64,000 nt of DNA from Sinohyriopsis cumingii (taxonomy: Eukaryota; Mollusca; Bivalvia; Unionida; Unionidae): assembly GCA_028554795.2 (NCBI GenBank), contig CM068824.1, forward strand, positions 157,216,789-157,280,788, read 5' to 3'. Of the stretch, positions 31,754 to 51,585 are shown one piece after another. The notes beneath the pieces were generated by a model that ran no database searches, was not told where the DNA came from, and saw nothing but the letters and a program-made list of their open reading frames with translations. The position numbers and the translations under genes were made by a program. The first letter of the stretch is position 1. Each line of letters starts with the position of its first letter.

Positions 31754-32095
31754 AGTAGTGAATGGGGGCACCCTACGTACAATGGAAATTAGCATTACAG
31801 AACCCCTTGGGACAATCTACGTACAATGGAAATTTAACATGGCGAAAAATCGTGGGTCAATCTACGTACAAGGGGAATTTAACATGGGAATAAATCGTGG
31901 GACAATCTACGTACAAGGGGAATTTAACATGGGAATAAATCGTGGGACAATCTACGTACAAGGGGAATTTAACATGGGATTTTTTTTTTTAAAAATTTAA
32001 ATTTAAAAAATTTTTTTTTTAAAAAAGGGGTAGGCAATGGAAAGGCTATCTCTTTTCGAGAAATATGGCTGGCCCTGAAAAGGGCCTTTGGGTTT
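31754..32095 (+). repeat. Element 2 left terminal inverted repeat
   Basis: About 342 bp, inverted copy of 51,245-51,585. The outer half has tandem 45-bp units containing CTACGTACAAGGGGAATTTA and ATCGTGGGACAAT (about 31,770-31,980). An A/T homopolymer stretch follows, and then, at the inner edge, a histone-type 3' processing signal on the minus strand (32,048-32,086). Confidence 0.95.
32048..32086 (-). terminator. Histone-type mRNA 3' end signal 1 (in TIR)
   Basis: On the minus strand: AAA, then GGCCCTTTTCAGGGCC (32,086-32,071), then AGCCATATTTCTC, then GAAAAGAGAT (32,057-32,048). This matches the metazoan replication-dependent histone signal: 6-bp stem, UUUC loop, flanking A's, and a purine-rich downstream element 13 nt after the stem, complementary to the CUCUUU of U7 snRNA. 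It lies 33 bp after the stop of the gene at 32,119-32,505. Confidence 0.88.
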
Positions 32096-32118
32096 TCTTC
32101 TTCTTCTTCTAATTTCTT

Positions 32119-32505
32119 CTAATTTCTTCTTTTCCTCCACCAAGTTCTTATTTTATCTCCTACACTCTTCTTCTCTTTCTTTTTTTTCTTCTCCTCCTCT
32201 TCTTTCTTCTTCTCTTCCTCCTCTTCTTTCTTCTTCTTTTCATTTTCTTCTTCTTTTTCAATTTTTTCGTTCCAATTGCGTATTCTTATTCTTTCCTCTT
32301 CATCCTCCTTCTCCTCCTTGATCTCTTTCATGACACCACTAATCTTGTCCTTTGCTTTCCTTAAGTTATTAATTTCCATCTTCACACGATGGGGACTATA
32401 GGAATAATGGTCTTCAACCAGTCTTAATAGCATCTGTTCCATTATTCCTAAGTTGTCTAAAACGTCTTGCAAGGTTTGTATTTTGTCGATTTGGTTTGAC
32501 GCCAT
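32119..32505 (-). CDS. Outer gene A: coiled-coil Lys/Glu-rich protein
   Basis: 128 codons. The N-terminal 60 residues are helical (LQDVLDNLGIMEQMLLRLVE), followed by a highly charged Glu/Lys coiled coil and a basic end (KIRTWWRKRRN). No known family. Upstream is a TATA-like CACTATAAGAA and the shared promoter module (32,555-32,592, repeated 32,633-32,662); downstream is the TIR histone-type 3' end. Same layout as genes B and C, with which it probably forms a tandemly duplicated family. Charged coiled-coil composition suggests a nuclear or scaffold role; this is inference. Confidence 0.7.
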   Translation of the reverse strand: MASNQIDKIQTLQDVLDNLGIMEQMLLRLVEDHYSYSPHRVKMEINNLRKAKDKISGVMKEIKEEKEDEEERIRIRNWNEKIEKEEENEKKKKEEEEEKKKEEEEKKKKKEKKSVGDKIRTWWRKRRN

Positions 32506-32554
32506 CTTCTTTTTATTCTTTGCAGAATGGTTTGAACAACGAACACTGTGGGTT

Positions 32555-32662
32555 CTTATAGTGAAAGCGCGTACGTGAAGGAAAACATCCCCCTAATAAC
32601 ATAAATTTGATCTTACCTAGATCATGACTAACATCGCGCGGACGTGAAGGAAAACATCCCCA
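32555..32662 (-). promoter_or_regulatory. Shared outer-gene promoter module, gene A
   Basis: Read on the minus strand: GGGGATGTTTTCCTTCACGT followed by CCGCGCGA (32,662-32,633), a spacer with a TGATC/GATCA pair, then a second copy with the TATA-like CACTATAAGAA adjoining (32,592-32,555). The same block precedes genes B and C. TATA lies about 50 bp before the ATG. Confidence 0.7.
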
Positions 32663-32874
32663 CTTTTCTCATTTCGTATAATATAACCCAAACTATACTC
32701 TCCACATACGCTAAGAAACAATAAAGAAACCCATAATCTACTATTCACGCAAACTTACTTTATTAGTTACTAACACAAACACAAACACACAATCACATAC
32801 ACTTCCACTATTAATAAAGAGTTAGTGTTTATATTCACACTACTCTACCTACACACATTGGCTAATCGATCGTT

Positions 32875-32913
32875 ATTTCTTTTCTAGAGTATTGGGTAGC
32901 CCTGAAAAGGGCT
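32875..32913 (-). terminator. Histone-type mRNA 3' end signal 2
   Basis: Minus strand: AGCCCTTTTCAGGGCT (32,913-32,898), ACCCAATACTCTA, then GAAAAGAAAT (32,884-32,875). The stem, UUUC loop, ACCCA flank and 13-nt spacing to the purine element are those of histone mRNAs. It follows the stop of gene B by 29 bp. Confidence 0.88.
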
Positions 32914-32942
32914 GTTTTGTTTGGAACTTCATGGACACCTGG

Positions 32943-33302
32943 TTAATGGTGGCACCTTCCAGGCCTGGCGCCACATACACATCTTATCCCCCAGTTACTT
33001 TTTACCTTTTGGGGGGAGAGAGCAGAGGCAGGATATGTCGCTTCAGAATCCCAATTTTCGCTCTCTGGGATTTTGAAATTTCTTCTCTCCTTTTCCTCCT
33101 CCTCTTCTTTGTTTCTTCTTTCCTCTTTATATCTTCTCTCTTCTTCTTTATATCTTCTCTCCTCCTCTTCTTTGTTTCTTCTTTCCTCCTCTCTTATTCT
33201 TCCCTCCTCGACAATGGCTTCCGCGGACAGTTCATTTAATATGCGCCTGGCATATTCCAGATGCACATGAAGCTCCAACAGTTTCTCCAGTCTCGTGTTC
33301 AT
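32943..33302 (-). CDS. Outer gene B: coiled-coil protein
   Basis: 119 codons. Start MNTRLEKLLELHVHLEYARR, then a heptad-like repeat of EERR(N/Y)KEE units (about residues 55-90), then a tail without charge bias that has Cys and His (CVCGARPGRCHH). The N-terminal pattern LxKLxExxVxLxxxRxxL is shared with gene C, suggesting common origin. Promoter module at 33,355-33,391 with TATAAATTG; histone-type 3' end at 32,875-32,913. No known family. Confidence 0.7.
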   Translation of the reverse strand: MNTRLEKLLELHVHLEYARRILNELSAEAIVEEGRIREEERRNKEEEERRYKEEERRYKEERRNKEEEEEKERRNFKIPESENWDSEATYPASALSPQKVKSNWGIRCVCGARPGRCHH

Positions 33303-33354
33303 TTTTGGTGTTGATCAATCAACAAGGGTAGCTGGACTGCCGAACGAGTTTCAA

Positions 33355-33460
33355 TTTATAGTGAAAGCGCGGACGTGATGGAAAACATCCCCTAATAACA
33401 TAAAATTGATCTTACCTAGATCATGACCAAAATCAACGCGCGGACCTAAAAGAAACACTC
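33355..33460 (-). promoter_or_regulatory. Shared outer-gene promoter module, gene B
   Basis: Minus strand GGGGATGTTTTCCATCACGT followed by CCGCGCTTTCACTATAAATTG (33,391-33,352), with a weaker second copy upstream (33,434-33,460). The DNA from here back to the next 3' signal (33,748) is a near copy of 32,555-32,913. Confidence 0.7.
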
Positions 33461-33709
33461 ACTCACTTTTTTATGTTACCCATCACTTCAATAGACTATC
33501 CACATACGCAAGGCAAGGCAATCCAATCTAACCCCAAATATACACCTCAAACACCAAAAAAACAAACATCATTTTAATCTACTATCCATACCAACTTACT
33601 TAACCACTTACAAACACAAACACACAAACACATACCCTCTCATTTTTTAAAAAGAGTTAGTGTTTATATTCACACTACTCTACCTACACACATTGGCAAA
33701 TCGATCGTT

Positions 33710-33748
33710 ATTTCTTTTCTAGAGTATTGGGTAGCCCTGAAAAGGGCT
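33710..33748 (-). terminator. Histone-type mRNA 3' end signal 3
   Basis: Minus strand: AGCCCTTTTCAGGGCT (33,748-33,733), ACCCAATACTCTA, GAAAAGAAAT (33,719-33,710), identical to signal 2. It follows the stop of gene C by 28 bp. The identity extends past the purine element (CGATCGATTTGCCAATGTG), showing that the whole intergenic unit was duplicated. Confidence 0.88.
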
Positions 33749-33776
33749 GTTTTTTGTTTTGCTATGGCATTCTTTT

Positions 33777-34160
33777 TTAGTTTCTAAGAATGCGATGTCC
33801 TCTGAGGATAGACTTTCTGGCGATAGGTCTGCTTCTTCGGAAAGAGAAGAAGAACTCTTTGGTGTCGATACGGCAATCGACAAAGCCTCTGTCAGCTTCA
33901 GGTTGCTGCTGTTGTTGCTGCTGTTGCTGCTGTTGCTGCTGTCTCTGAAGTCTGTACTTCTCTGTCCATTCTTCTTTCTCCCTGTTCATTTCTTCTCTGA
34001 AGAGCTCTTCTATCAGGTCTTCAGTGATTTTTAACATTCTCACATTCTCTATTTCTTCTGGCTTCGGTATCAGACTGTGTCTGACCCTATGCAAATTCAC
34101 GTAGGCTTCGTTGAGCTTAGCTAGTTTGGAGCACATCTTCTTAGGAGGATGAGTCGACAA
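33777..34160 (-). CDS. Outer gene C: helical protein with polyglutamine tract
   Basis: 127 codons. Start MSTHPPKKMCSKLAKLNEAY, helical to residue 70 (EELFREEMNREKEEW), then a run of 14 glutamines (CAG/CAA mix) and a basic, Ser/Phe-containing end. It is related to gene B in the N-terminal helix pattern. Promoter module at 34,189-34,227. Histone-type 3' end follows. Function unknown; the polyglutamine tract is probably a length-variable region. Confidence 0.7.
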   Translation of the reverse strand: MSTHPPKKMCSKLAKLNEAYVNLHRVRHSLIPKPEEIENVRMLKITEDLIEELFREEMNREKEEWTEKYRLQRQQQQQQQQQQQQQPEADRGFVDCRIDTKEFFFSFRRSRPIARKSILRGHRILRN

Positions 34161-34188
34161 TGGATGGTTAGACTGGGAACAACCCGGT

Positions 34189-34227
34189 TCTTAAAGTTAA
34201 AGCGCGGACGTGAAGGAAAACATCCCC
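34189..34227 (-). promoter_or_regulatory. Shared outer-gene promoter module, gene C
   Basis: Minus strand GGGGGATGTTTTCCTTCACG followed by TCCGCGCTTTAACTTTAAGAA. This is the same core as upstream of genes A and B, with a degenerate TATA (TTTAAG). Confidence 0.65.
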
Positions 34228-34343
34228 CACACGGTTTTCGAGCCGCAACGTTCATGAGAGGGATAGTAAGAAATGAAAGAGCATGAATCCAACATTCTTC
34301 TAGCTAAACAAACGACAAAGGCATTTTTTCAAAACACAACATT

Positions 34344-34349
34344 TTTTAT
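34344..34349 (-). terminator. Poly(A) signal AATAAA
   Basis: AATAAA on the minus strand 120 bp beyond the end of the protease reading frame, in an A/T-rich stretch. It marks the end of the core leftward gene block and contrasts with the histone-type ends of the neighbouring outer genes. Confidence 0.55.
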
Positions 34350-34468
34350 TCAAAAATCACTTAACACTAAACAACAACAACATTTCTAACATTTTTTAAC
34401 AATAATCCAACACTATAACATTAAACAATTTTTTTTCAAATCACAAACATTTTTTCTCAATGGACAAT

Positions 34469-35052
34469 CTACTTTGAACAAGGCTGACAACGTTGTGAAT
34501 GAAATTGTGATTTCCACTGTTGGAAATCATTAGGCCATTGATGGACACTACGTTTCCTAGCTTGAGACAAAAGATAAGCATAATGGTCACAAAACCATCG
34601 ATCTACTTTCACATCGTTTCTAGCAGAAGAACGAGGATCAAAATGAGTCACTAAATGTTCTAAGGAATAGCCCAGGCTGCGATGATGCAGAAAATACACA
34701 CAGTACTGTCCACACACCAAGGAATCTGTGCTTGTAATTTCACGTTATTGAATCGGGTGGTTTGAGCATTTCTTCTCATAAAGTCGATGATATCGTCTTC
34801 CAAAGGGGGCAATCCGTACGAATCGAAATATTCCACACATCCTTCTTGAGGAAAGTAGACGGCTACCCAGTGGGTTCCTGGGAGATGACTGTCGTCCGTG
34901 TTGATCACGTAAGCTTGATGGTCTTTAGGTTTGCGATGAGGGAGTTCATCTTTAGCACAGACGACAGGATTCCAAGAAGCCGTATACGAACTGTGGTTCA
35001 AAAGGTAATAAAGTTCCCAGGTATCCATTTGTGTGGTTTTTTTCTTCTTCAC
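34469..35052 (-). pseudogene. Adenain-like cysteine protease, one frame break
   Basis: The first segment (ATG 35,052 or, more likely, 35,028) includes LPGTHWVAVYF (catalytic His) and VEYFDSYGLPP (catalytic Asp). It ends in this frame at 34,660. The catalytic cysteine segment VCGQYCVYFLHHR is in the next frame and runs to 34,469. The shift lies near 34,715, just before the cysteine. It is consistent with loss of one base; a sequencing error or recoding are alternatives. Family: C5 proteases of adenoviruses and Polintons, which cleave capsid precursors. It lies at the downstream end of the core block after the 162-residue gene. Confidence 0.8.
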
Positions 35053-35537
35053 AGGTAATAATAAGTCGTCAATTCGATCCTGACTTTTTGCTTGAAAATG
35101 TCTGACGAATAAACGGTTATTCGTTCTGTTTCCTCACTCTGATTCAGGAGAGCTTCGATACGATGGATCTCTTGAGTGGTTAATGGTGGACAAGAATGTT
35201 CACGCAAGTCTTTATACCACTGGTGCAACACGTCTTTGTTCGAGATGAGACTCCAAGCTTCGTCCAGATACTCGTCCAATTTTTCTTCTTGACTCAACAT
35301 TAGGCATTTATCGTGTTGAATTTGACTGGGATGATCGTTTTGACATCCATAGCAATTTTTCTTGATCAATTCCGTCATTTTGTCGACCAAGTGTTTGGCA
35401 AAACAGGAGACTAAATGGGCTTCTTGTTCTGGCCATCTCGATTTCATCATGATCACTTCTTCTTCTTTTTCTACGGTCTCCTTACATTCCATCTCCAAAG
35501 TTTCTCCACTAGGTAAAGAGAGATAACAGTCTTCCAT
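35049..35537 (-). CDS. Unrecognised protein with Cys/His cluster
   Basis: 162 codons. The centre holds CYGCQNDHPSQIQHDKCLML, a C-x2-C-x3-H-x5-H-x2-C arrangement likely to bind zinc. The N-terminus is acidic, the C-terminus helical (KLDEYLDEAWSLISNKD). The HPSQ-H-C cluster recurs in proteins of invertebrate virus-like elements to my memory, without assigned function. It lies between the major capsid gene and protease, starting 6 bp after the capsid stop. Confidence 0.6.
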   Translation of the reverse strand: MEDCYLSLPSGETLEMECKETVEKEEEVIMMKSRWPEQEAHLVSCFAKHLVDKMTELIKKNCYGCQNDHPSQIQHDKCLMLSQEEKLDEYLDEAWSLISNKDVLHQWYKDLREHSCPPLTTQEIHRIEALLNQSEETERITVYSSDIFKQKVRIELTTYYYL

Positions 35538-35542
35538 GGTTT

Positions 35543-36841
35543 CTAGTAATCTAGGATGACTTCTCTCAAACTGTTGATTTCTATGGTATTATCAAATTCT
35601 GCATAAAGGATGACGTTCACTGTATCGTCCAGTGGCTTTGCAAACTGAAGTTCCACACGAATCTGGCCTGATTTTATAGGGTGGAAATGTCCCTCGTCGC
35701 TGCCCTGGTCTGGAGTGAAATCGAAAGCCCACAAAGCATAGCCTCCTGCATAATCGTCGTACGTAATGCCGTGACTGGTGTTGGTTCCTAACTGGCCCGT
35801 GGCTTCGTACAAGGACAAGTACGATCTCAAGTAATTGTTCTTGGCAAAGTCGGGTTCGAAAGGTCTGGTACACAAGGTCTTGCCATCGCGACTGACTTCG
35901 ATTTTCTTCACGTTGAAGTGCTGAAAGTTGAAAGGATTTTTAGCGAAGTGTCCGTTGAAGGTTGAATTCTCGACCATGCCAAGGATTAAACGTTTGGGTA
36001 ACTGTCCTTGAAACAGATGATCTTCGATCATGGAATGATGGTTAGCGGGAATGGTGAACGTTTTCACTTCCACACGTCGTATGGGATACTTGGCAGTTGT
36101 TCTGCTCAACGTTTGACTGATGTCGTTACCTACTTTGGGTAACACTTCCACGCGTCGTACGTAGAGTTTGGCCTCTTCGATTTTGCTTTTAGGAGCCTTA
36201 GTAGCATCAGCCAACAAATGGAAAGCGGTACTGCTGCGATTCAGTCTGAGGCGGACATTGACCCCGTTCAGCAAATACTTCTCTTGCAACCACATGTCCA
36301 AATGCAAACGATCCATCAGTTCTAAACTCCTCTTGTCTAAGATTTTGATTTCTCTTTGCTCAAAGCCGCTATTGGTTCCATCTACAAGGTCGAACTTGCC
36401 CGCTTCGTCAGGTTCCCACAGCACACAGGCATTGAGATGAGTATCCTTGGCATCTATTCCGTACGTCAAGAGATTCTCCAGGTAGGCACGGTAAGGGTAA
36501 GTATCCATGCTGCTGCTGACCAGTTTGTTATTCAAGTACAAGTCCACTGAGCTGAACAAGGAATGCATGAAATTGTTGACGGGAGCTATATTCTCAGTGT
36601 CATCTATTCCACCATCATCCTTATCTAGAACTTTGACTTTTAAGTACAAATAACTGCTATTCAGATCGATGTAATCTTCGGGCTGTCCTTTGATTTCAAA
36701 CTCGATGGGAGCGGAATCGGTCAATGAGGAGACTGGGTGAAATTCCACCCACTGGGATTCTTGCATCGTCATCATGGTGGGGGGCATGGTAAACAGATCC
36801 AGTTCCGTTTTGGAACAAGCGCAAGACTCTCGGTGCATCAT
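35543..36841 (-). CDS. MCP: Major capsid protein (hexon-like; F54H12.2-like)
   Basis: 432 intact codons. Characteristic segments: QPEDYIDLNSSYLYLKVKV (residues 53-71) and APVNNFMHSLFSSVDLYLNN (86-105), then VSSSMDTYPYRAYLENLLTY, and at the C-terminus AKPLDDTVNVILYAEFDN. These belong to the family annotated in animal genomes as F54H12.2-like, which are Maverick/adintovirus double-jelly-roll capsid proteins. No membrane segment; beta-rich. Flanked by pX-like gene upstream (17 bp) and the Cys/His gene downstream. Forms the icosahedral shell. Confidence 0.8.
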   Translation of the reverse strand: MMHRESCACSKTELDLFTMPPTMMTMQESQWVEFHPVSSLTDSAPIEFEIKGQPEDYIDLNSSYLYLKVKVLDKDDGGIDDTENIAPVNNFMHSLFSSVDLYLNNKLVSSSMDTYPYRAYLENLLTYGIDAKDTHLNACVLWEPDEAGKFDLVDGTNSGFEQREIKILDKRSLELMDRLHLDMWLQEKYLLNGVNVRLRLNRSSTAFHLLADATKAPKSKIEEAKLYVRRVEVLPKVGNDISQTLSRTTAKYPIRRVEVKTFTIPANHHSMIEDHLFQGQLPKRLILGMVENSTFNGHFAKNPFNFQHFNVKKIEVSRDGKTLCTRPFEPDFAKNNYLRSYLSLYEATGQLGTNTSHGITYDDYAGGYALWAFDFTPDQGSDEGHFHPIKSGQIRVELQFAKPLDDTVNVILYAEFDNTIEINSLREVILDY

Positions 36842-36857
36842 TTTGTTCTGTTCTTTC

Positions 36858-37274: not shown

Positions 37275-37281
37275 GACTTAC

Positions 37282-38217
37282 TTACGAGTCGTGAGAGAAC
37301 CGTTTTCGAAAATGGAGTTTCACCGTGACTTTTCCTTTGGTGAATGGAATATTTTGTCCCAAATCTCCTTTTATAGTAATGTTGACCGTGTCCAAATACG
37401 ACTTGCTGACCGGCAAATAGTGAGGATGGACAAATTCGCGGTGAACGTGGTAAGTGTTTCCACCTTCCTCGTCAGCGTTCGCGGCAGAATCCACTTTGAA
37501 AGGAATGACACGCAGTAACGGTACGGAGGTGTGTCCCACCACGTTGTACTCCACCACATCGGAATACACAAACATCAAAGTCAGTCCTTGGTTCAGTTCT
37601 ACCGGGGTACGAAATAACTTGCTAAAAGACTCGTTGTCGTAAACGATGGGTAATTCGTTGTTATTGAGTATGATCGTTCTCATGTTCATGTCTCCGCCCA
37701 ACATGTCATACAATTCAGGACAAAATAAAATGGACATGATTTTACTCCGCTCAAATTTCATCAAGAAGCGACGAGCTACTTTGTGGTACTCCATGGTGAC
37801 ACTTTTGTTCTTGACATTGTCAAAAGCTTTCCCAAACACGCCATTAAACTTGGTAGCTATGGTGTTGACCAAATGTTGACCACTGAAATAATAGCCTGGG
37901 AGAATGGACAAGTGGTAGGTCGACTTTTGAGTTTTCTCATTATAGGTTTTAATGTCAGATATGGTAACTCTCTTATCCAACTCCTGTTGCAATTGCTCGT
38001 CAAGAACTTCCACATCAAATTTATTTTGATTGGGAAGGACATTGAGGACTTGGGTCGGGTGAATCATTTCTACTAAAGCCACTTCCCAATGGGCTTCGTG
38101 ATCTAAGGGGATGGCCTGAGGTAATTTGGCCGTGTAACAGCACAACGTGTTGTTGGGAAACACCTCCATGGAACTGTCACTGGGTAAGGTTAAGTAAAAT
38201 TGGTTTTGGTGACTCAT
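37282..38217 (-). CDS. mCP: Minor capsid (penton-like) protein
   Basis: 311 intact codons. The N-terminus FYLTLPSDSSMEVFPNNTLC, then HWEVALVEMIHPTQVLNV, is typical of the adintovirus penton family. The C-terminal segments DVVEYNVVGHTSVPLLRVIP and LDTVNITIKGDLGQNIPF, followed by a Lys/His/Arg end, form the jelly-roll edge strands. Its ATG overlaps the stop of the upstream membrane protein (ATGA), indicating translational or transcriptional coupling. Expected to occupy capsid vertices. Confidence 0.8.
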   Translation of the reverse strand: MSHQNQFYLTLPSDSSMEVFPNNTLCCYTAKLPQAIPLDHEAHWEVALVEMIHPTQVLNVLPNQNKFDVEVLDEQLQQELDKRVTISDIKTYNEKTQKSTYHLSILPGYYFSGQHLVNTIATKFNGVFGKAFDNVKNKSVTMEYHKVARRFLMKFERSKIMSILFCPELYDMLGGDMNMRTIILNNNELPIVYDNESFSKLFRTPVELNQGLTLMFVYSDVVEYNVVGHTSVPLLRVIPFKVDSAANADEEGGNTYHVHREFVHPHYLPVSKSYLDTVNITIKGDLGQNIPFTKGKVTVKLHFRKRFSHDS

Positions 38218-38642
38218 AATTCTAGAGTTCTGTGGCTGTCCGAGGGGTTAGTGGACGTCAGAGGCGTGTCTCCGTCCAAAATGGGGTTCTGGTTGTAGTT
38301 GTTGGAGTGGTGACTGACACTGGCACTGGACACAAGGTTCCCGGGGTTCCCGTTCGAGGAGAATTTCAGGGAGGGATTGGGAAGCAGGTAACCGATGCAA
38401 CTGCTCAATAAAATGGTCCACAATTGTTTGTCTCCTTGTTGCAAACTCAAATTGGCAATGGCTGCCCCGATGACACAATACACCACGAAGATTTGGCAGA
38501 AAAAGACGATTTGCGTTTTAGGCACACGTTCTCCACACCACACCCACAAGGGTTGTTTTGGTAAATCTTGCACAGAAGAACTAGGGGAAGAAGGAGTGGT
38601 CGACGTAGCTGCGTCTGATGTGTGAAAGGGCATGATGGTCAC
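38214..38642 (-). CDS. Two-membrane-segment adintovirus protein
   Basis: 142 codons. A Ser/Thr/Pro-rich N-terminus (1-30), then KTQIVFFCQIFVVYCVIGAA (first membrane segment), a short loop with LSLQQGDKQLW, and ILLSSCIGYLLPNPSLK (second segment), then a polar tail. The block from GERVPK to LLPNP is strongly conserved in adintoviruses of invertebrates to my knowledge, with unknown function. A TATAAAAA box (38,651-38,658) lies inside the 3' end of the integrase gene. A downstream ATG at 38,633 fits that box better than 38,642. Confidence 0.7.
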   Translation of the reverse strand: MTIMPFHTSDAATSTTPSSPSSSVQDLPKQPLWVWCGERVPKTQIVFFCQIFVVYCVIGAAIANLSLQQGDKQLWTILLSSCIGYLLPNPSLKFSSNGNPGNLVSSASVSHHSNNYNQNPILDGDTPLTSTNPSDSHRTLEL

Positions 38643-39787
38643 TTCTTCTTTTTATAGTCGATGACTTGCGAAGCGTCGATCCAAGAATCGAAACTGGGTG
38701 GATATCCTTTCCAACGTACTTTGACTTCTTTGACACGTCCTTTGCCCACTTTACGGGTTCTGCGTTCGAGAATGCTTTCGATGTCGTACACGTCGTCTTC
38801 TTTTTTGGTCACACGTTGTAACTCGGGCAAATAAAACGTTCCTTTGAGTACTTCTCCGTTCATGTCTTCCAATTTATAGACGGTAGGATGACGGCCATGC
38901 ACTCGTCCAGTGACGCGAAACAGTTCGGTCGTCCAGTTAGGTAAATAACCTTTGTCGAAAGTGCGTTTGGTTTTGCCAATGCGCACCCAATCTCCTACGG
39001 CCAACTCTCCACTTTTCTTGGGGACAGCCCTGGTCGGGGACGTACCGAACAGGCGCTTAAACACCAGCACTTCGTTGTCGGGAGTCACGTCTTGCGTGGC
39101 ACGTCCGATGCTTCGATGGTAAGATTGGTTGTACGCTTGTACCAGGTGCGGTAAGATGTCGATGTACTTCAGAGTGTGGTGATGCGTAAAATATTTCCAC
39201 ATGCGTTCTTTCAAAGTGCGTTGAAAACGTTCCACGATGCTGGCTTTGGTTTCGGGATTCTCGGTGGTAAAAAAATGAATGTCACGTTTCTTTAATTCTT
39301 TTTGGAAAGCTTGGTTCAGAAATTCGGTGCCTTTGTCCGTTTGCCATCGAAGAGGGTGACGACCGCTTTGTTTTAACACCCGTTGCAGGGCTCGCACTAA
39401 CTCGCTGCTGGATTTGGAAGTCAAGGGCACGACCCAGGCAAATTTGGAAAAGACGTCGATGACACAAAACAAATATTTGTAGCCACGATTGTAGCTGGCC
39501 AAATGAGAGACATCGGCTAAATCGGCTTGCCATTGATGATCGATGCCTTCCACTCGGGTGCGACTTCTGGCAAACTTACGTCGAATGGGTTTGTGTAAAG
39601 TGTAGGTAGCTTGTTCTTGTAACCATCGTTGCACTTGAGGTAAACGGAGACTTTTCAGTCGCATTTTGGCAGCACGGTACAATTTTTGAACTCCTGCGTA
39701 ACCTGCAGGATGCGAGGGATCGTAGTAAATGCTGGCTAAGACTTTTTCCATTTTTTGTGTTGATTGGTGTCTTAATAAGGCACCCAC
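38639..39787 (-). CDS. Integrase (D,D35E) with C-terminal chromodomain
   Basis: 382 codons (382 residues from 39,787; ATG at 39,751 aligns better with the element 1 start). The rve core has Asp89 in HQWQADLADV, Asp151 in WQTDKGTEF and Glu186 in ASIVERFQRT, 35 residues apart. An SH3-like segment follows (GELAVGDWVRIGKTKRTF). Residues 330-378 form a chromodomain: VYDIESILERRTRK, EVKVRWKGYPPSFDSWIDAS, with the aromatic cage positions kept. The chromodomain may target insertion to methylated histones. Insertion here was into a GC-rich minisatellite. Confidence 0.93.
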   Translation of the reverse strand: MGALLRHQSTQKMEKVLASIYYDPSHPAGYAGVQKLYRAAKMRLKSLRLPQVQRWLQEQATYTLHKPIRRKFARSRTRVEGIDHQWQADLADVSHLASYNRGYKYLFCVIDVFSKFAWVVPLTSKSSSELVRALQRVLKQSGRHPLRWQTDKGTEFLNQAFQKELKKRDIHFFTTENPETKASIVERFQRTLKERMWKYFTHHHTLKYIDILPHLVQAYNQSYHRSIGRATQDVTPDNEVLVFKRLFGTSPTRAVPKKSGELAVGDWVRIGKTKRTFDKGYLPNWTTELFRVTGRVHGRHPTVYKLEDMNGEVLKGTFYLPELQRVTKKEDDVYDIESILERRTRKVGKGRVKEVKVRWKGYPPSFDSWIDASQVIDYKKKK

Positions 39788-40416: not shown

Positions 40417-40465
40417 GGGGTTGTCAGGGGTCGATTCTGAGATCTTGGGACTTCCGAAGGCCTTT

Positions 40466-41920: not shown

Positions 41921-42664
41921 TCATGGGGAGTGAAATGAAGTCGAGGACGGAGACGTGTACAGGACAGGCCCTCCGTCTTGGCACCAGTGGTGAAACAAGT
42001 GGGTACGAAATCGCAAATCCTCGGGGGTCGTAGGTTTCAAATCGACGAGTAAATAGGCGTGTGGAGTTTGAGTGGCATCGTCGTACGCCTGAGTCAGCCA
42101 AGGCGTTCCTAACTGTTTGGCTAAGACTTGCACTTGCGATTTATCTCGAGGGCTTTTAAACAAGACCACGTAATGCGCATTGAGACTGATGGTGCGATGG
42201 GCTTTACTTTGTTGAAACAAATTTTGGGTGATGTAAACGACACTGGCATTACGGTGATGCCCTTTGCGCGTAAACCACAATTTAATTTCTTCTTCGTCTT
42301 CTCCTAACATGTCGTCGAAAATGACCAAATGGGTTAGACGGGAGTCAGAGACGATGCCATCGTCTTCTTTAGGAATGCCTTCCACAAACACGATGGAATC
42401 GCCTTGACTTTCTCGCAAGAGGCTGTACGCCGATTGCCACTCTTTGTAACACCACACGATCCGTTGAGGGGGTCGATCGATCAAATGATGTTTATGTTCG
42501 ATCAAACGTTTGACGAATTCGGTTTTACCTGAACCGCTAGGTCCAGCAATGAGCATGTTAAAGGGATGGCGAAGATACAAAGCCTCCCAACTGGCACGAT
42601 CTAAGTGTTCGTCGATGACTTTGACAGTAGAGGAAGAGGGAGCAGAGACAGCAGAGGTAGCCAT
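41921..42664 (-). CDS. FtsK/HerA-type packaging ATPase
   Basis: 247 codons from the ATG at 42,664; TATATAAA at 42,711-42,718 lies about 50 bp upstream. Walker A is GPSGSGKT (residues 41-48). Walker B is HLVIFDDMLG. Downstream KGHHRNASVVYITQNLFQQ resembles the sensor region of A32-like ATPases. Intact. It overlaps no other accepted start. A degraded relative lies at 52,440-52,850. Role: packaging of DNA into capsids. Confidence 0.92.
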   Translation of the reverse strand: MATSAVSAPSSSTVKVIDEHLDRASWEALYLRHPFNMLIAGPSGSGKTEFVKRLIEHKHHLIDRPPQRIVWCYKEWQSAYSLLRESQGDSIVFVEGIPKEDDGIVSDSRLTHLVIFDDMLGEDEEEIKLWFTRKGHHRNASVVYITQNLFQQSKAHRTISLNAHYVVLFKSPRDKSQVQVLAKQLGTPWLTQAYDDATQTPHAYLLVDLKPTTPEDLRFRTHLFHHWCQDGGPVLYTSPSSTSFHSP

Positions 42665-42742: not shown

Positions 42743-42749
42743 GAATGTT

Positions 42750-43976: not shown

Positions 43977-43988
43977 AAATAGGTCATA

Positions 43989-44444: not shown

Positions 44445-44472
44445 GAACAAATTATTATGGTAAGAAGTTACT

Positions 44473-45216
44473 TCAATGTCTCGGTCCCACTAAGGGTAAG
44501 TAATGACAATTAGGTGACCATCGAGCATGTTCAACGTAGGCCGAATCTTGCGGTTCCCAGTGGTGAAGTGACACACCGCAACTGAAGCACTTGACTTTAT
44601 CTCCTTCGCCCAAGTAGAAAAATCCGGCTCTGGCTAATTCTTCGGGGGTCGGTCCTCCCAGATACTTTGGCCATTTTCCTTTGAACGATTGAAGACGATT
44701 TTCAAAGCCGCAGTATTCCGACAAACGCACAGGAAACGAATATTCGTCTTTCACAGGTTCGTTTCGATGAGGGTTGGGTGACATGAACAGGAGTTTGCTC
44801 AGGGCTGGATGACATCCGTAGGGGGGTAGACGTGAAGGTGAACATTCCCCTTTAAAACGAAACCCAGTAAAATGTCCAAGAGGACGAGCAGCATCGCTTT
44901 CGCACCCCACAGGTTTGACACGCACAGCATCACTTTCCATGATAGGGGTAGGGGCACTAAAGTTCCCATGATGCTTTACGGCATCGCTCAGGTCACAACG
45001 TACAGCATCGGTCCCATCGCAAGGCTCACAATCGCACTCGTCTGCAAACTCCGTTACGCAATTACAATGGTAACCACATGGACAATCGCAGTTTCCTTCC
45101 GGACATTTTCCGTCGCAATGTCTGGGTCTTATCCATCCAGTATTAGTCACACTAGAGAAAGATACAGCTTTTTTACAATCCCCAAACTGGAACGATGTCT
45201 CTTTCAAAGTATTCAT
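44473..45216 (-). CDS. BIR-domain protein (IAP-like) with Cys-rich N-terminus
   Basis: 247 intact codons. Residues 174-240 form a BIR domain: RLQSFKGKWP at the start, then Cys210-x2-Cys213-x16-His230-x6-Cys237 (KCFSCGVSLHHW to SPNC), with ELARAGFFYLGEGDKV between. Residues 34-74 hold eleven cysteines in short spacings (CDGKCPEGNCDCPCGYHCNC), probably a separate zinc-binding or disulfide module. No RING is present. BIR proteins of baculoviruses and other large DNA viruses block caspases. TATATAAAAAA at 45,273-45,283 lies about 60 bp upstream. Likely a host-derived anti-apoptosis gene. Confidence 0.88.
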   Translation of the reverse strand: MNTLKETSFQFGDCKKAVSFSSVTNTGWIRPRHCDGKCPEGNCDCPCGYHCNCVTEFADECDCEPCDGTDAVRCDLSDAVKHHGNFSAPTPIMESDAVRVKPVGCESDAARPLGHFTGFRFKGECSPSRLPPYGCHPALSKLLFMSPNPHRNEPVKDEYSFPVRLSEYCGFENRLQSFKGKWPKYLGGPTPEELARAGFFYLGEGDKVKCFSCGVSLHHWEPQDSAYVEHARWSPNCHYLPLVGPRH

Positions 45217-45261
45217 CTTGTTCGCTCGGTCTTGGTAGTCACAATGAACTATCGATCTTGC

Positions 45262-48200
45262 CTAGGGTTCCTTTTTTATATACAGACCAATACCGACGTG
45301 ACCGTACGGTAAGGTGAAATGATTGGGAAGTCGAACTCGCTTCTGGTACACGATTTGATAGACTTTTTCCAAAGGTCGACTGACGATGTGGTGAGTGGGT
45401 AAACGTACAATCTTGTTCGGTTGGTAAGTGGTCACTTTAAAGTTTCCATCCTCTCCCGATTGCAAGGCTTCTTTCAATACCCCAAAATTGACCACTCGAC
45501 TGGTACGATAATTCAGAGTCAGTCCTTTCACTTTGCACGTCGTGTGCACTTCTCCTTGTTTGTCCCGGTATTCGTAGCCGTAATTTTTGGGACCGCCACT
45601 GACGAAACTTAGAATCTTGTCGTCGGGATGCTCGTCTGTCCAGGCTCCTAAACGGTCTCCTTCGATGTTAGGGTGATGTTGAATCGGGTGATGGATGTAA
45701 ATGCAACTGTCTGTGTCAAAGTACAGGACGCGTTCTTCTAACAGTTCTAAAGCTTCGTACAATTTTAAGCGAGCATGGGCTGTCACGTAAGCCGCAATGA
45801 TGACATTTCCAAAAGGGTCGTCTTGTACAAAGTCCAGATCTTCTTCGTAATTGACCAAGATCAAATTCTCTCGAACGACGTCCACGTGTTTCATGTATTT
45901 GGTTTTGTCGTGAATCATCTGGAAGTAGCGGGAAGGTTCTGTCAAATATTCCGTCTTCGGTAAACACGGTCGTTGTGCCATTTTACCCCACAAGCAATTT
46001 AACATCACTTTGGCAAACAATCGCCTGCCTTCGTTTTTCTCGATGTGGTCTAAAGTGATGCCTTCTTGTTCGTAGTATTTCTCTTTGAATTGTATTTGGT
46101 CTTCGGGAGTGTGACACCAGGAAGGATAGCCGCTGGCTTCTTGTTTCAGTTTCAAAAAGGCATCCACGTAGTCGGCGAAAATGCCTTTCTGACTGGGATC
46201 ACCCTTGCGGTACTGTTGTGTCTTGGGAAAGTGGCAAATTTCGTACACTTCTAACAGTTGGTATCCCATGTCCAGAGCTTTGAACAATTCTACGCTGACC
46301 CAGGTTCCCGTCAAGGCCCGTTCTTCTTGGGTGTGCTGACAAGGTTGGTCTTGGTTGCACGTTTCGGCACAAGTACGGCACAAGGGAAACATCAGTTTGC
46401 CTTGACAATGGTGAGGTAAGACGGGATGGTAGAGGTTCGTGGGAGGCAAAACTTTACACTTGATCAAGCCTTCGTATTGTCGAATGTTTTTCAAGTCGAT
46501 GTGTTCCGTCAGAAATTGCGGGTGCCCTACAGGAAAGCGACAATATTTGCACACGTAGGGATACAGCGAACACACGTCCAAGTATTTGATTTCTTCTCCT
46601 TTCTCTTCGTCGGCTTGGTACAGCAAACAGGTGGCATTGGTCCTTCCTCCGTACAAACTATCCCTCGGGTTCAGCGGGTCCATGAACTGGTAACTTTCCA
46701 CGAGGCGTTTAAACTCGGGATCGGTTTTCAAACGGTGATCGTACTCGTGTTCCCACATTTCCACCACTCGGTATCCTTGCTGTTCTAACTTTAGGCGTCG
46801 CTGACAAGTGTCCTCGTACAAGTCTTCCATGGTTCGTTGCAAAAACTGATTTTTAGTGCCACGGTCAGGGTAACAGACGGGACATCCGTGAAATAAGCAA
46901 CCGTTAAACTCGTACACGATCTTGGGGTTTTCTAAGTCCCAACCATCGACCGAATACGTTCCGATGGTCTTTTCGCCCCCTCCGTTGCGGGCATGCTGAA
47001 TCCACTTGTCTTCCTTGTCGCACAAGTAATGTAACCAACGTAGGGCTTTGACCGAGTATTGACGTTTGACAAAGTGGGTCGTTTGAGGACTGATGACAGC
47101 CACGGTCTTTTCAGGCATGAATCGTTGTCGATACACTAAGGAACACGCTTTGGCAATGGTGCAAGCTTCTTTCAAAGGATCGACCCCTCCGTGTTCCATG
47201 AACAGTTCTCGAAATTTTCCACAGCAACGTCGTAAAATGTCCACGTCGGAACGACAATACTTTAGCATTTCTTCCTGAAAGTCGAAGGGGTCCGAGGCGT
47301 GAATCTGGTACCAAGCGTAGAAAGCTTCTCGTTGTTCGGTACGCATGTTGTCGGGGTCGTAATAGTGAGCCTCTGGTAAATGGGGTAGAACGGCGTGTTG
47401 ATTGGCTTCCGTATTGAAAAAGTGTGGAAAGTACCCTTTAGCCATTTCTGTCATTCCAAACGTTTTAGGCATTCGACTCAAAGGCATGGCCAAATAGCTC
47501 ATCGAATCTTTAAACTGTACTTGTCCCACTTGCATGAAAATGATTTTGGATCCGTTCAAAGTCACTTTAGGACGCTCGGTGCCTTGTTCCGTATAGTATC
47601 TCAAAAGAAACTGTCCATCGTATCCGGAGAAATTGTGAGCCATCACTGTGGCATGACGATGACAATCTCCGTAACGTTCGATGTCCTCTTGGCTCCACGT
47701 CTTGTCGATGGGGTCTAAGACCCATTGGGCAAAATCGGCTAACGTGTTCGGTCCCCGAAAGATTTTTTCACGCCCTCCAGGAATCTTGCTGCAGTGAGGG
47801 CAATGATTGAAGATAGGTTCTTGAATGCACTTCTCGCACGCTCGATGAGCCACGCAGAAATTAGGAACGTGAATGCCAGTCTCTTGCATGCATTCGAAAT
47901 CGAAAAAGATGAAATTGCCTTTCTTCTTGTGTCCATCCTCTTTCTCTGGTGGGGGTTGGTATTTTTGCACGTAGCATTGGTGTTCCAAGTCCACAATGTG
48001 CTGACAAATGTGACATTTTTTCATTCCTGAACATACGTGTGCCTTGGCACTGTTGGTACGTATGCCTTGTCCACACGTAGGGCACAATCTCAGCAGTTGA
48101 CAAGCACATTTCTTCTGTGAACCTTGCGTCTTCAAATGTTGTTGGTAACAGGTAGGGCTGACAAACGTGCGCAGACAAGTTGAACAAGGCACTGGTTCTT

Positions 48201-49311
48201 CGCTCAGACAGGGTGGAGAGGCCAAACATCCTGAGCATTTCCATCCACAATGTTTGTGTTGCTCTCGATTATTATAACCATAGTCACATTTCTCACAATA
48301 ATAAGTATATCCCAGGAATCCAGTGATACTGGTAATGGTATCGAAATGGTCATCGTGATGATAAAGGTGAATGTATTTTCCGTCCTTAAAATCTTGGCCT
48401 CGAAACAATAGAGGCCCGCGCATTTCTTGAGGGTGCACTTTCAAGGTGTATCGTGGAGCTAGGACATCTTGCAATTTTTGCATCTCGGGAATGCCACAGG
48501 GTGTGTCTTTGGGCAGTCCGGCTTGTTGTAACAGGAGTTCTGCTTCGTTTCATTGTTTGGCTCGGTCGGAACGTTGAATAGTGTTCCAGGTTCTTTTCCA
48601 TTCTACCGTGTCGTTCTTGTTGGCATAGGTTCGTCCCACCACGATGGCACGGGCTAAACACATCTGGTCATGAGGGTTGTTAATTCGGACGAGACTCGTT
48701 TTGGTGTTGCGAAGGTCGTCCACCAATAACATCTTTTTGCGTCCTGTCCCTTGAGGAGGAGAGACGTGGGTCATGTCCAGTGTGGCTTTACCATCGGTGA
48801 TGTCAAACTGATCATTAGATTGTTGTACGTGTTGAATTTTGTCCATGACTTTGGAAGCGGTCAATTCTGCAGGGGTGCTAAACTCGATCCAAACAGGGGA
48901 TTTCAAACCGTCGTGTTGTATGGAAAGTCTCAAGCGATCGTCTTCTTTGGGTTGACATTGTCGCTTGAGTGCAGTGAGCAAAGAATCCCACACCCCAGTG
49001 ATGAACACTTCTGCTTTGTCTAACGGCACTTCAGCCTTGAAATCTTTAAACTTCACCGTGTATTTGTAAGCCGTGGTTCTAAATTTTCTAGAGGAGCGCT
49101 TTTCCGTCTCTCGAATGGAATAGTAATTTTCAGGGTTAACTAAGGGTGGTGAACTTGGTTTAGAGGGTTCGGATTCTGGTTCACTCATGTCCTCTTCAAA
49201 ATCACTGGCATGAATTTGTGCCAAGATTTCAGCCCTGGTACGGGGCGATAGATCACGTTTCTGCCTCTTACTTTCTTCTTCTTTCTTCTCGAATGAATGG
49301 GATCGTTTCAT
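45262..49311 (-). pseudogene. PolB: Protein-primed type DNA polymerase B with in-frame TGA
   Basis: One frame from ATG 49,311 to 45,262, interrupted only by TGA at 48,552-48,550; 253 codons precede it and over 1,090 follow (first later ATG 48,483). Numbering from that ATG: zinc-binding Cys clusters (62-160); exonuclease motifs FFDFECM (Asp195, Glu197), NFSGYDG (Asp289), YCRSDVD (413); a VSR-like endonuclease insert with YEFNGCLFHGCPVCYP (524-539) and MWEHEYD; polymerase motif A YLDVCSLYP (Asp636), motif B KVMLNCLWGKM (825-835), motif C YFDTDS (923-925). The family replicates Mavericks by protein priming. The stop could be a recent mutation, or recoding. TATAAAG near 49,360 is its promoter. 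Confidence 0.93.
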
Positions 49312-49379
49312 CTTGAAAGCAAAAAGTCAAATGACTCAAGTTCAAACACCATAAACTACTTTATAGTCATAGCAGACCA

Positions 49380-49396
49380 GCGTATATAAAAGGGTG
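49380..49396 (+). promoter_or_regulatory. Strong TATA box for zinc-knuckle gene
   Basis: GCGTATATAAAAGGGTG, about 55 bp before the ATG at 49,446. The divergent polymerase gene has TATAAAG on the other strand near 49,360, so 49,312-49,445 is a compact divergent promoter. Confidence 0.65.
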
Positions 49397-49445
49397 TGTG
49401 TCTTGTCCTTTCACTATTCATTTCACTCTCAAGCCGAGCACAACG

Positions 49446-49920
49446 ATGGAAGAGACTAACCAGATGGAACGTTTCGTCAGAGCTTTGCGAGGGGTCATTA
49501 GAAAATTCTCTTCAGACCAGCCTACGGACTACTCTCCTTCCTTTAGAGATAAAAGTCAAGATACTTGCTATATCTGTCAGAAGAAAGGGCATTGGTCTTC
49601 AGAGTGTCCAGACCGTCAAAAAAGAAAAAAAAACAGGGGATAAAAAAGACAAAAGTCAAGATACCTGTTATTATTGTAAAGAAAAAGGACATTGTTCTCC
49701 AGATTGCCCAAAAAAGAAACAAGAGGAGTCAGAAGAAAAGAGGAATTCTTCAGAAGAAGAGAGGGATTCTTCAGAGGAAGAGAGGGATTCTTCTGAGGAA
49801 GAAAGAAGACAGGTGAAGAAAAAGAAACAGGAGAAAAAAAGAAGAAGGGAAGAAAGCGAGGAGGAAGAAGAAGAGGAAAAGAGTGTGACGGTGAAGAAAT
49901 TCAAAAAACAGAGAGACTAA
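49446..49920 (+). pseudogene. Double CCHC zinc-knuckle protein, frame break at an A-run
   Basis: ATG 49,446 opens MEETNQMERFVRALRGVIRK and a first zinc knuckle CYICQKKGHWSSEC (C-x2-C-x4-H-x4-C). At an A9 run (49,625-49,633) the frame changes. The other frame has a second knuckle CYYCKEKGHCSPDC, then a Ser/Glu repeat (SSEEERD units) and a Lys/Glu tail, ending at 49,920. Two knuckles resemble retroviral nucleocapsid and CNBP-type RNA/DNA-binding proteins. It is divergent from the polymerase, so possibly an early nucleic-acid-binding factor. The break may be an assembly homopolymer error. Confidence 0.65.
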
Positions 49921-50009
49921 ACAAGGAGAAAAGAAGAAATCAATGAACTTTTTATTAAAGTGTTGTGTTGTGAATTGTGAATTGGATTGTAAAAAAAAAT
50001 GGAGAAAAG

Positions 50010-50015
50010 AATAAA
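50010..50015 (+). terminator. Poly(A) signal AATAAA
   Basis: AATAAA on the plus strand 90 bp after the end of the zinc-knuckle gene. Confidence 0.55.
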
Positions 50016-50150
50016 TGAATGATATAAGGTAAGTGTCTTTGAGTTGTGATTTTAAAATAAGAAGCTACACTCACGCACTCATACACAGACACGTACTATA
50101 AGGGTAAAATGGGTGGGGTTTTTTTTGAGTTATTGGCAAATTGAAATTGT

Positions 50151-50189
50151 ATTTCTTTTCGAGAAATGTGGGTGGCCCTGAAAAGGGCC
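50151..50189 (-). terminator. Histone-type mRNA 3' end signal 4
   Basis: Minus strand: AAAAA, GGCCCTTTTCAGGGCC (50,189-50,174), ACCCACATTTCTC, GAAAAGAAAT (50,160-50,151). This is the best match to the animal histone consensus in the window, including ACCCA immediately after the stem. It follows the stop of the 190-residue gene by 27 bp. The sequence beyond (ATTTGCCAAT) is shared with signals 2 and 3. Confidence 0.9.
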
Positions 50190-50215
50190 TTTTTCTTCAT
50201 GGTGAAGGGGTGAGT

Positions 50216-50788
50216 TTAAGCAATGAACTTTAACTGCCGTATGCCTTTGCCACGGCCAAGGCCTACTTCTGGACTGCGTAATGTTGATGATGATAATGAT
50301 TGGGTTGAAATCACTAAGGGTGGTACGGTAGGCTTAGTCACAGGGTTGACGTGTTTAGCTCGGGAAGGTCGTATTCTCTTCGGTCGTGATAAAGAAGTCT
50401 GATACATTTGTTTCAGACTTCTTAACTCCGCTAAAATGTCCAACAGTACCGTGACCGTTTGATTTTCACCCTCTTGTTTCTTTGCTGCTACTTCTTCTTG
50501 CTGTTGTTTTTTTCTTACCTCTTCTTCTTGTTGCTGTTGCTGTAGGAGAAAAGCCTGTTCCGCTTCCTTTTGTCGTTGTATAAATTTCTCCAATTCTTCT
50601 TTCTGTCTCTGTCTAAAATTCTCCACTTGCGGTAATGAAGAAGGTAACGAAGGTTCCGGAACAAATTCTTGCGAGGAGAGAAAATCCACAAAATCCCAAT
50701 GTACCTCTTCTGAAAGTAAGTCCGGGTTCCCTTGGGCGGTCTCCCCTGCTGGTGCACCCCACTGGATCGTTTTCTGAGTTTCCGTCAT
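50216..50788 (-). CDS. Outer gene V: Gln/Glu-rich coiled-coil protein
   Basis: 190 codons. The N-terminus has WDFVDFLSSQEFVPEPSLPS. Residues 55-110 are a coiled coil rich in Gln, Glu and Lys (RQRQKEELEKFIQRQKEAEQ). After it come TVLLDILAELRSLKQMY and a basic C-terminus (SRPKRIRPSRAKHVNP). No family recognised. Acidic/hydrophobic start, coiled coil and basic tail would suit a DNA-binding regulator; this is inference. Divergent from gene W through a 211-bp promoter region; histone-type 3' end. Confidence 0.65.
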   Translation of the reverse strand: MTETQKTIQWGAPAGETAQGNPDLLSEEVHWDFVDFLSSQEFVPEPSLPSSLPQVENFRQRQKEELEKFIQRQKEAEQAFLLQQQQQEEEVRKKQQQEEVAAKKQEGENQTVTVLLDILAELRSLKQMYQTSLSRPKRIRPSRAKHVNPVTKPTVPPLVISTQSLSSSTLRSPEVGLGRGKGIRQLKFIA

Positions 50789-50999
50789 GTTGAATCACTA
50801 TCGCATAGATTGACTGCACACAAGCGCTAGCGAGTCTATATTGACTACGTGACGTCACAGACTGCTCTCTTCGGATTGGATGCGGGCTGACTGAATTCTG
50901 TAACGGATTGGTGAATGAACTCAATCCGTTTCAATCCTTTCTGTCCCTATAAATAAGCGCAGTTCACTGCATTGATTCACCTATTCTCGGAGCCTCAAC
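50789..50999. promoter_or_regulatory. Divergent histone-pair-like promoter (CRE, CCAAT, TATA)
   Basis: Between the ATGs of gene V (minus) and gene W (plus): a perfect CRE palindrome TGACGTCA (50,850-50,857), two CCAAT boxes read as ATTGG (50,875-50,879 and 50,907-50,911), two further CAATCC words (50,922, 50,932), and TATAAATA (50,948-50,955) for gene W. A TATA-like AATATAGAC (complement of 50,834-50,842) serves gene V. CRE and CCAAT elements in a short divergent spacer are hallmarks of H2A-H2B gene pairs. Confidence 0.65.
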
Positions 51000-51230
51000 A
51001 TGTGGACCGACGTTGAATCTTCAACCCTTGTGTCAACAATGATGTTCAGGACGGACATGCTCATGTATGTCCGATCCAAGTGGACCGTTGTCCACAGGAC
51101 CAACAGCAGCCTGTGGATAAGAAGAGTCTATATAGAGAGACAAGGTTGCCTCAAGAGGACTCTGATGTATGGCCCTGCTGTAAGACGAAGTTTGAGGAAA
51201 AGAAGATGTCGCAAATGCCCTTTATGTTAA
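51000..51230 (+). CDS. Outer gene W: small basic protein
   Basis: 76 codons starting 45 bp after a TATAAATA box. It reads MWTDVESSTLVSTMMFRTDM, with a basic C-terminus RRSLRKRRCRKCPLC. A second frame over the same DNA is also open for about 65 codons (with HAHVCPIQVDRCPQDQQQ), so the true product is uncertain. It is the only rightward outer gene, and ends 23 bp before the TIR histone-type signal. No family recognised. Confidence 0.45.
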   Translation: MWTDVESSTLVSTMMFRTDMLMYVRSKWTVVHRTNSSLWIRRVYIERQGCLKRTLMYGPAVRRSLRKRRCRKCPLC

Positions 51231-51244
51231 GGGCATATTAACAT

Positions 51245-51585
51245 AAACCCAAAGGCCCTTTTCAGGGCCAGCCATATTTCTCGAAAAGAGATAGCCTTTC
51301 CATTGCCTACCCCTTTTTTAAAAAAAATTTTTTTAAATTTAAATTTTTAAAAAAAAAAATCCCATGTTAAATTCCCCTTGTACGTAGATTGTCCCACGAT
51401 TTATTCCCATGTTAAATTCCCCTTGTACGTAGATTGTCCCACGATTTATTCCCATGTTAAATTCCCCTTGTACGTAGATTGACCCACGATTTTTCGCCAT
51501 GTTAAATTTCCATTGTACGTAGATTGTCCCAAGGGGTTCTGTAATGCTAATTCCCATTGTACGTAGGGTGCCCCCATTCACTACT
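51245..51585 (-). repeat. Element 2 right terminal inverted repeat
   Basis: Inverted copy of 31,754-32,095 with few differences (for example one base in the AATGGRAATTAGC segment). Followed by the target duplication GAGAAG at 51,586-51,591. Confidence 0.95.
51254..51292 (+). terminator. Histone-type mRNA 3' end signal 5 (in TIR)
   Basis: Plus strand: CCCAAA, GGCCCTTTTCAGGGCC (51,254-51,269), AGCCATATTTCTC, GAAAAGAGAT (51,283-51,292). Mirror image of signal 1 because it lies in the TIR. It would process outward transcripts of gene W. Confidence 0.88.

Follow-up and report, generated by a model that had tools for sequence, protein, structure and literature searches.

Why should the genes at the two ends of a mobile element close with the signal that ends histone messenger RNAs (mRNAs)? 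The question is raised by element 2, a Maverick of about 20 kb (31754-51585) in a 64-kb window, i.e., the whole stretch of DNA analyzed here, from contig CM068824.1 of the unionid bivalve Sinohyriopsis cumingii. Histone-type ends in animals are formed by SLBP, which acts on a stem-loop, and by U7 small nuclear RNA, which acts on an element downstream of it, with cleavage about 5 nucleotides (nt) past the stem. To our knowledge, such ends are generally held to be private to replication-dependent histone genes. In element 2 they follow five outer genes, termed A, B, C, V and W, and upstream of three of these there is also an element known from the promoters of the host's histone genes. We think it probable (roughly 0.83) that the outer genes are organized as pseudo-histone genes, whose transcripts would be processed by the host histone machinery.

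Histone-type signals after the outer genes and in host histone genes

The five genes (all open reading frames) and their signals are listed here, with scores from the Rfam Histone3 model RF00032, for which the curated cut-off is 34 bits.

32119..32505, minus strand: outer gene A, 128 amino acids, charged, coiled-coil-like by eye
32943..33302, minus strand: outer gene B, 119 amino acids
33777..34136, minus strand: outer gene C, 119 amino acids counted from ATG
50216..50788, minus strand: outer gene V, 190 amino acids
51000..51230, plus strand: outer gene W, 76 amino acids, basic
32048..32086, minus strand: histone-type 3' signal of A, stem 32071-32086, 35.6 bits
32875..32913, minus strand: histone-type 3' signal of B, stem 32898-32913, 31.0 bits, under the cut-off
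33710..33748, minus strand: histone-type 3' signal of C, stem 33733-33748, 31.0 bits, under the cut-off
50151..50189, minus strand: histone-type 3' signal of V, stem 50174-50189, 41.2 bits, the best score
51254..51292, plus strand: histone-type 3' signal of W, inside the right inverted repeat, stem 51254-51269, 35.6 bits

The pattern RGCCCTTTTCAGGGCY occurs as five exact matches in the window, against 0.77 expected at up to three mismatches, and none of 100 shuffled windows reached five. They lie on the coding strand in every case, at the places given in an earlier note made from the sequence alone. That note had claimed that the signal follows the stop codons at 23-33 bp; the measured gaps from stop to stem are 32 nt in A, 29 in B, 28 in C, 26 in V and 23 in W. 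The downstream GAAAAGA starts 13 nt past the stem at every site, exactly as it had said. The sites have the features of RF00032, i.e., a 6-bp stem, a 4-nt U-rich loop and an A-rich 5' flank, and the Histone3 model matched nowhere else in the window up to E 5.

A Pfam scan of A, B, C, V and W, histone families included, placed no family over its cut-off, in agreement with the earlier statement that none of them encodes a histone. Below the cut-off, A matched TAF4 and B the CAF1A acidic region weakly (E about 6e-4); both names concern chromatin, though the matches likely reflect charged low complexity. The signals are not five independent events but fall into three sequence classes. Those of A and W are copies of one inverted-repeat sequence (31754-32095 and 51245-51585), and the B and C sites share about 100 nt, nearly identical, from the stem downstream, the B and C proteins being 28% identical.

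The host assembly comprises 2.9 Gb, and its main histone genes lie in tandem repeats of about 8.3 kb, of which one full repeat (L081) was read. The earlier note had pointed to the host's own histone genes as the proper comparison, and all five in this repeat (H3, H4, H2B, H2A and H1) do end in a stem-loop with GAAAAG downstream, each over the Rfam cut-off (35.0-39.4 bits). The loop is TTTT in H3 and H4, TTTC in H2B, as in the element, TTTA in H2A, and TTTC in H1, the stem of which contains a compensated pair (GGTCC/GGACC). GAAAAG lies 13 nt past the stem in H3, H4 and H2B and 14 nt past it in H2A and H1, and the gaps from stop to stem are 27-38 nt. All 29 of 29 further H3 loci also had a stem-loop with GAAAAG at 13-14 nt. 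The element's signal matches this host's own version, spacing included.

Two observations on the host genes may be recorded here. One H3 copy (L048) has a broken N-terminal start. A variant stem (GGCTC/GAGCC) with GAAAAG downstream occurs in tandem arrays at C8:71.07-71.18 Mb and C15:116.49-116.61 Mb and on C370 and C410; these arrays are perhaps further histone clusters.

A host histone promoter element and its recurrence

Upstream of A, B and C lies the 23-bp sequence GATGTTTTCCNTCACGTCCGCGC, present twice in A, where one copy has a mismatch.

32567..32589, minus strand: host histone promoter element, gene A copy 1, one mismatch (pattern match)
32636..32658, minus strand: host histone promoter element, gene A copy 2, exact (pattern match)
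33367..33389, minus strand: host histone promoter element, gene B, the same as in the host H2B promoter at 23/23 positions (sequence comparison)
33435..33455, minus strand: second stretch in the gene B promoter, matching the host H4 promoter over 21 nt (sequence comparison)
34202..34224, minus strand: host histone promoter element, gene C, exact (pattern match)

Shortly past GATGTTTTCCNTCACGTCCGCGC there is a CTATAA in A and B and a CTTTAA in C. The host H1 promoter contains GATGTTTTCCNTCACGTCCGCGC with one mismatch, and that of H2A a related stretch in inverted orientation. At up to three mismatches, the window contains four copies of GATGTTTTCCNTCACGTCCGCGC, all upstream of A, B and C, and none of 100 shuffles contained any. 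We compared the 220 bp upstream of genes with host histone promoters, using 300 shuffles for each comparison. Against H2B, H2A and H1, the promoters of A, B and C scored above all 300 shuffles; against H4, that of B did so, while the scores of A and C were reached by 11/300 and 21/300. Nothing comparable was seen in the promoters of V, W, the zinc-knuckle gene, the gene at 48550, the polymerase, the ATPase or the candidate capsid. The strongest score outside the outer genes, that of the candidate capsid against H2B, was reached by 7/300 shuffles, and those of the zinc-knuckle gene and the 48550 gene against H2B by 13/300; among 50 comparisons, these were taken as chance. A likeness of V and W to the H3 promoter, seen by eye as two shared 9-mers, was dropped, its score being reached by 116/300 shuffles for V and 97/300 for W. 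Across copies of the element, each of 10 left-end loci had three copies of the promoter element, and 6 right-end loci and 30 loci fetched with the V protein had none (each set including the window's own locus).

Both parts of the design recur throughout the genome. The stem with its downstream element has 52,932 exact matches, and the promoter element 30,300, with no match to the reversed pattern used as a control in either case. At five sites per element, the former corresponds to about 10,600 element equivalents. This estimate is based on exact matches; it takes in decayed as well as partial copies, and a minority of the matches belong to host histone genes. For each pattern, the first 100 places were listed. 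They repeat the layout of the window, for example at C1 34139-, 35031-, 35846-, 52508- and 53604+, and divergent pairs resembling V and W, 1087-1125 nt apart, occur 18 times among the 100 listed sites. Of the listed promoter copies, 50 lie below 3.1 Mb on C1. Of these, 38 had a 3' signal on the same strand within 900 nt downstream, 30 of the 38 at 426-568 nt by the listed coordinates, and none had one downstream on the opposite strand; 22 of the 50 had a 3' signal upstream, as expected for tandem genes. No match to the stem with its downstream element was found in viral and prokaryote contigs. The stem pattern alone had a single match in the viral contigs (L001), which has no downstream element and was taken as chance.

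On the mechanism that we propose, A, B and C would be complete histone-type units, each with the host histone promoter element, an intronless frame, a short 3' untranslated region (UTR), a stem-loop and GAAAAGA, and V and W, which diverge from each other at the opposite end, would have the 3' half of the design only. Host SLBP, the U7 small nuclear ribonucleoprotein and the cleavage complex would cut the outer transcripts about 5 nt after the stem, with CTAGAAAAGA and CTCGAAAAGA as the predicted U7 pairing targets. The outer mRNAs would be non-polyadenylated and expressed alongside host histones in S phase, the relevant cells being presumably those of the rapidly dividing germ line and early embryo, and the core genes (polymerase, integrase and ATPase) would stand outside this program. 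We infer cleavage, absence of poly(A) and S-phase timing from sequence, and the case for S phase is stronger than in the earlier note because A, B and C carry the host histone promoter element.

Alternatively, the 3' signals might be used purely as compact terminators of outward-facing genes, with no cell-cycle role. The inverted repeats hold the ends of A and W, with no AATAAA or ATTAAA between either signal and the element end, which leaves histone-type cleavage as the only recognizable means of ending these two within the element; the lack of the histone promoter element in V and W also fits a terminator. A, B and C, however, add the host histone promoter element, which a simple terminator would not need. 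We consider a role in termination only to be unlikely, though still deserving of serious attention.

Selection, conservation and the remaining alternatives

Purifying selection acts on A, B and W, as judged from ratios of nonsynonymous to synonymous divergence (dN/dS). For A the ratio was 0.06, 0.07, 0.12 and 0.27 in the four measurable copies; for B it was 0.11, 0.12 and 0.15 at dS 0.85-1.69, and 0.38 in a young copy (L011), the remaining comparisons of A and B being saturated or identical. A frame of W was obtained in eight of the nine loci tried (not L020), with ratios of 0.08-0.16 against five diverged copies; the values against three near-identical copies (0.27, 0.55 and 1.97) rest on 2 to 4 changes and were given no weight. 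For V, four young copies gave 0.24-0.45. In some copies of the element no frame ends near the site (B in L002, L007 and L015, A in L002 and L009, V in L008), which means that some copies are decayed. When the genome was searched with the V protein, the best 150 of 27,848 first-look candidates were 97-100% identical, 149 of them without an internal stop, which points to a large, apparently recent expansion. For W, the protein collection contained a single relative, which was 65% identical (sources jgi and ena).

The signals recur at fixed positions in these copies. The 46 element loci (L002-L047) partly overlap, and distinct places were counted, of which four are the window's own. There were 105 distinct places with the pattern, of which 88 had the downstream element with up to one mismatch, at 13 nt in 86 and at 14 nt in two; all six pairs of the stem can form in 82 of the 88. 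Of the places without it, 16 represent one coding-sequence look-alike and one (in L003) has lost the element. Of the 30 loci fetched with V, 29 had the V site and all 30 the W site, at up to two mismatches. With the repeated layout, this bears out the expectation of the earlier note that related elements would have the motif just after outer genes rather than at random. Eight loci (L002-L009) were retrieved with the Histone3 model itself, and their own matched sites were not counted as independent conservation; the partner sites not used for retrieval were present in 8/8 of these diverged loci, at up to three mismatches.

Could the signals be relics of captured host histone genes that were later replaced, with tails and promoters carried along passively? 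Both the promoter and the 3' end are close to those of host histone genes, and as an origin this is plausible. Among 11 B/C-type sites (two from the window), compared over a span from dS 0.12 to saturation, identity was 95.5% in the stem, 85% in the spacer and 100% in the downstream element, against 58-67% in the upstream flank and 81% beyond the downstream element, so that the signals are near constant where the B genes are at dS 0.85 to saturation. In L005 and L014, moreover, the A slot holds different proteins, of 182 and 198 amino acids and 35% identical to A, still flanked by the promoter elements and the 3' signal. Passive relics would decay unless renewed by recombination, and we regard this account of the present signals as improbable. 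From its sequence, the A slot seems to be one with changeable cargo, and the regulatory cassette apparently moves, or is homogenized, independently of the genes; recombination could therefore explain part of the conservation of the signals. In two loci (L017 and L036), W has diverged from its counterpart in the window to dS 1.3-1.4, although the inverted repeat of L017 is 94% identical. The histories of that repeat and of the W gene seem to differ, which suggests recombination among elements.

If the palindrome were instead a DNA element, acting in replication, packaging or integration, with a secondary likeness to histone ends, two copies in inverted repeats and a stem palindromic except for its loop would be natural. 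Three copies are internal, however, and each of the five lies on the coding strand at 23-32 nt past a stop; the 13-nt spacing and GAAAAGA, both outside the palindrome, rank with the least variable features and agree with host histone genes. This makes such a role very improbable. Chance, or a repeat unrelated to genes, can be dismissed for practical purposes, since two sites below the Rfam cut-off weigh little against the five exact matches in the window, the genome counts with silent controls and the fixed layout after genes.

Several results weigh against the pseudo-histone reading. The B and C sites, at 31.0 bits (E 6e-5), were below the RF00032 cut-off. When RNA folding was compared with shuffles, V alone stood out (z -3.79), A giving -1.59 and B -0.36, with an alternative fold preferred. 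The earlier note had set the outer genes apart from core blocks with AATAAA. The leftward core does have that motif on its coding strand, at three positions only (42742, 38025 and 34350), and the zinc-knuckle gene has it once (50010), but an AATAAA or ATTAAA also follows the stems of B (at 134 nt), C (155 nt) and V (218 nt), and these three transcripts may therefore be polyadenylated.

One position was unpaired in 4/8 partner stems (L002, L003, L005 and L008). V-type sites (n = 6) showed little contrast, with 92% identity in the stem and 82-88% in the flanks, because the V-type copies are young. Stem covariation was weak: in an alignment (A4) of 12 distinct rows, which omits L082 and the V site of the window because their letters repeat other rows, the score was reached by 30/500 shuffles, the number of pairs changed on both sides by 250/500 and that of further pair types by 474/500. 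Recombination rather than selection may keep the inverted-repeat and cassette sites alike. One decayed relative of V (L089, at C17:64067353) has a compensated stem, GGCTC/GAGCC.

Also on the negative side, V and W have no GATGTTTTCCNTCACGTCCGCGC, whether in the window or in the right-end and V loci, and neither has the host H3 promoter; the argument for a shared S-phase program consequently rests on A-C. Among the 50 listed promoter copies, 12 had no signal within 900 nt downstream. Relatives of the element were examined as DNA only within this host, and viral contigs searched with the family B polymerase, the candidate capsid and an integrase alignment yielded none. Neither SLBP nor U7 was identified in this assembly, a result that does not speak for their absence. 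For SLBP nothing was over the cut-off (best E 0.72), but the domain may be split over exons, and the controls were also silent; for U7, the best RF00066 match (L078) reached 29.3 bits against a cut-off of 34, and its 5' part was not complementary to the host element by eye. A U7 pattern search gave seven matches with no convincing U7 by eye; the reverse complements of two of them (L082 and L087) resemble diverged B/C-type element sites.

Going beyond the pseudo-histone reading itself, the host histone program may have been taken over as an expression cassette with changeable cargo. S-phase drive in the germ line or early embryo, from about 10,000 copies, could then explain the amplification, and would load SLBP, U7 and histone locus bodies. 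We offer this larger proposal tentatively, and would wager slightly against it.

The element and its place among known systems

Element 2 is a Maverick (Polinton) by its inverted repeats, 6-bp duplication, integrase, family B polymerase and A32-type ATPase.

31748..31753, no strand: target site duplication GAGAAG, left copy, read directly (right copy 51586-51591)
31754..32095, plus strand: left terminal inverted repeat, 342 bp, inner edge 9 nt upstream of the gene A stem-loop
51245..51585, minus strand: right terminal inverted repeat, 341 bp (sequence comparison)
38639..39751, minus strand: integrase (rve) with chromodomain (Pfam match)
41921..42664, minus strand: A32-type packaging ATPase (Pfam match)
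45262..48483, minus strand: family B DNA polymerase, DNA_pol_B_2 (Pfam match)

The two terminal repeats are 99% alike across most of their length. Three further frames (35543-36841, 37282-38217 and 34660-35028), which we take to resemble the Polinton capsid and adenain-type protease, matched no Pfam family and no PHROG at E 0.01. Among 120 listed of 2,526 integrase relatives, those with names come from oysters and amphioxus, at 52-57% identity. The element also encodes a protein with a BIR (inhibitor of apoptosis) domain (44473-45216). A second virus-like element lies at 13926-25798, with a double jelly-roll domain, an SF1-type helicase, an A32-type ATPase, an integrase fragment and an HNH endonuclease; it has no histone signal by the Histone3 model up to E 5. 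A match to an A32-type ATPase barely above the cut-off (62416-62961) is perhaps a remnant of a third element.

Here histone-type ends are found on non-histone genes of a mobile, virus-like element, at tens of thousands of places, and three genes of this mobile element additionally carry a promoter element of host histone genes. Such a design could offer a nuclear DNA element a concrete means of coupling the timing of its genes to host DNA replication without poly(A), and on this view the outer genes would be missed by RNA sequencing after poly(A) selection. The finding also carries a warning for annotation, as Histone3 matches in this genome may be element sites rather than histone genes. The eight best-scoring Histone3 matches in the genome that were read (75 scored of 589,472 candidates, too few to indicate proportions) were all element sites and not histone genes.

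Mavericks occur in bivalves, where they make up 0.8% of the Ctenoides ales genome (PMC10294476, PMC11373642); the accessible text of these two papers has nothing on the gene ends of bivalve Mavericks, and that of PMC6713331 merely cites a paper on SLBP. A search of the full-text literature, with subscription journals mostly outside its scope, for the histone stem-loop, SLBP or U7 together with Maverick, Polinton, virus or transposable element showed no such case among the papers listed.

Element 2 shares with Mavericks (Polintons) and adintoviruses its size of about 20 kb, the inverted repeats, a 6-bp target duplication, a chromodomain integrase, a family B polymerase and an A32-type ATPase; it differs in its histone-type gene ends and promoter elements, neither of which we know from any other member of this class. 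Some viral mRNAs, for example those of iridoviruses, end in hairpins without poly(A), and the likeness to them is the hairpin at the 3' end. We know of no copying there of the host histone stem, spacing, downstream element or promoter. The closest parallel in form is with replication-dependent histone genes (RF00032), with which the outer genes share the stem, the loop, the downstream purine element at a spacing of 13-14 nt, the short 3' UTR and the intronless frame, and, in A-C only, the element of the H2B and H1 promoters. Unlike histone genes, however, the genes of element 2 are mobile, encode no recognizable histone, and have their copies dispersed in 20-kb elements rather than gathered in histone arrays.

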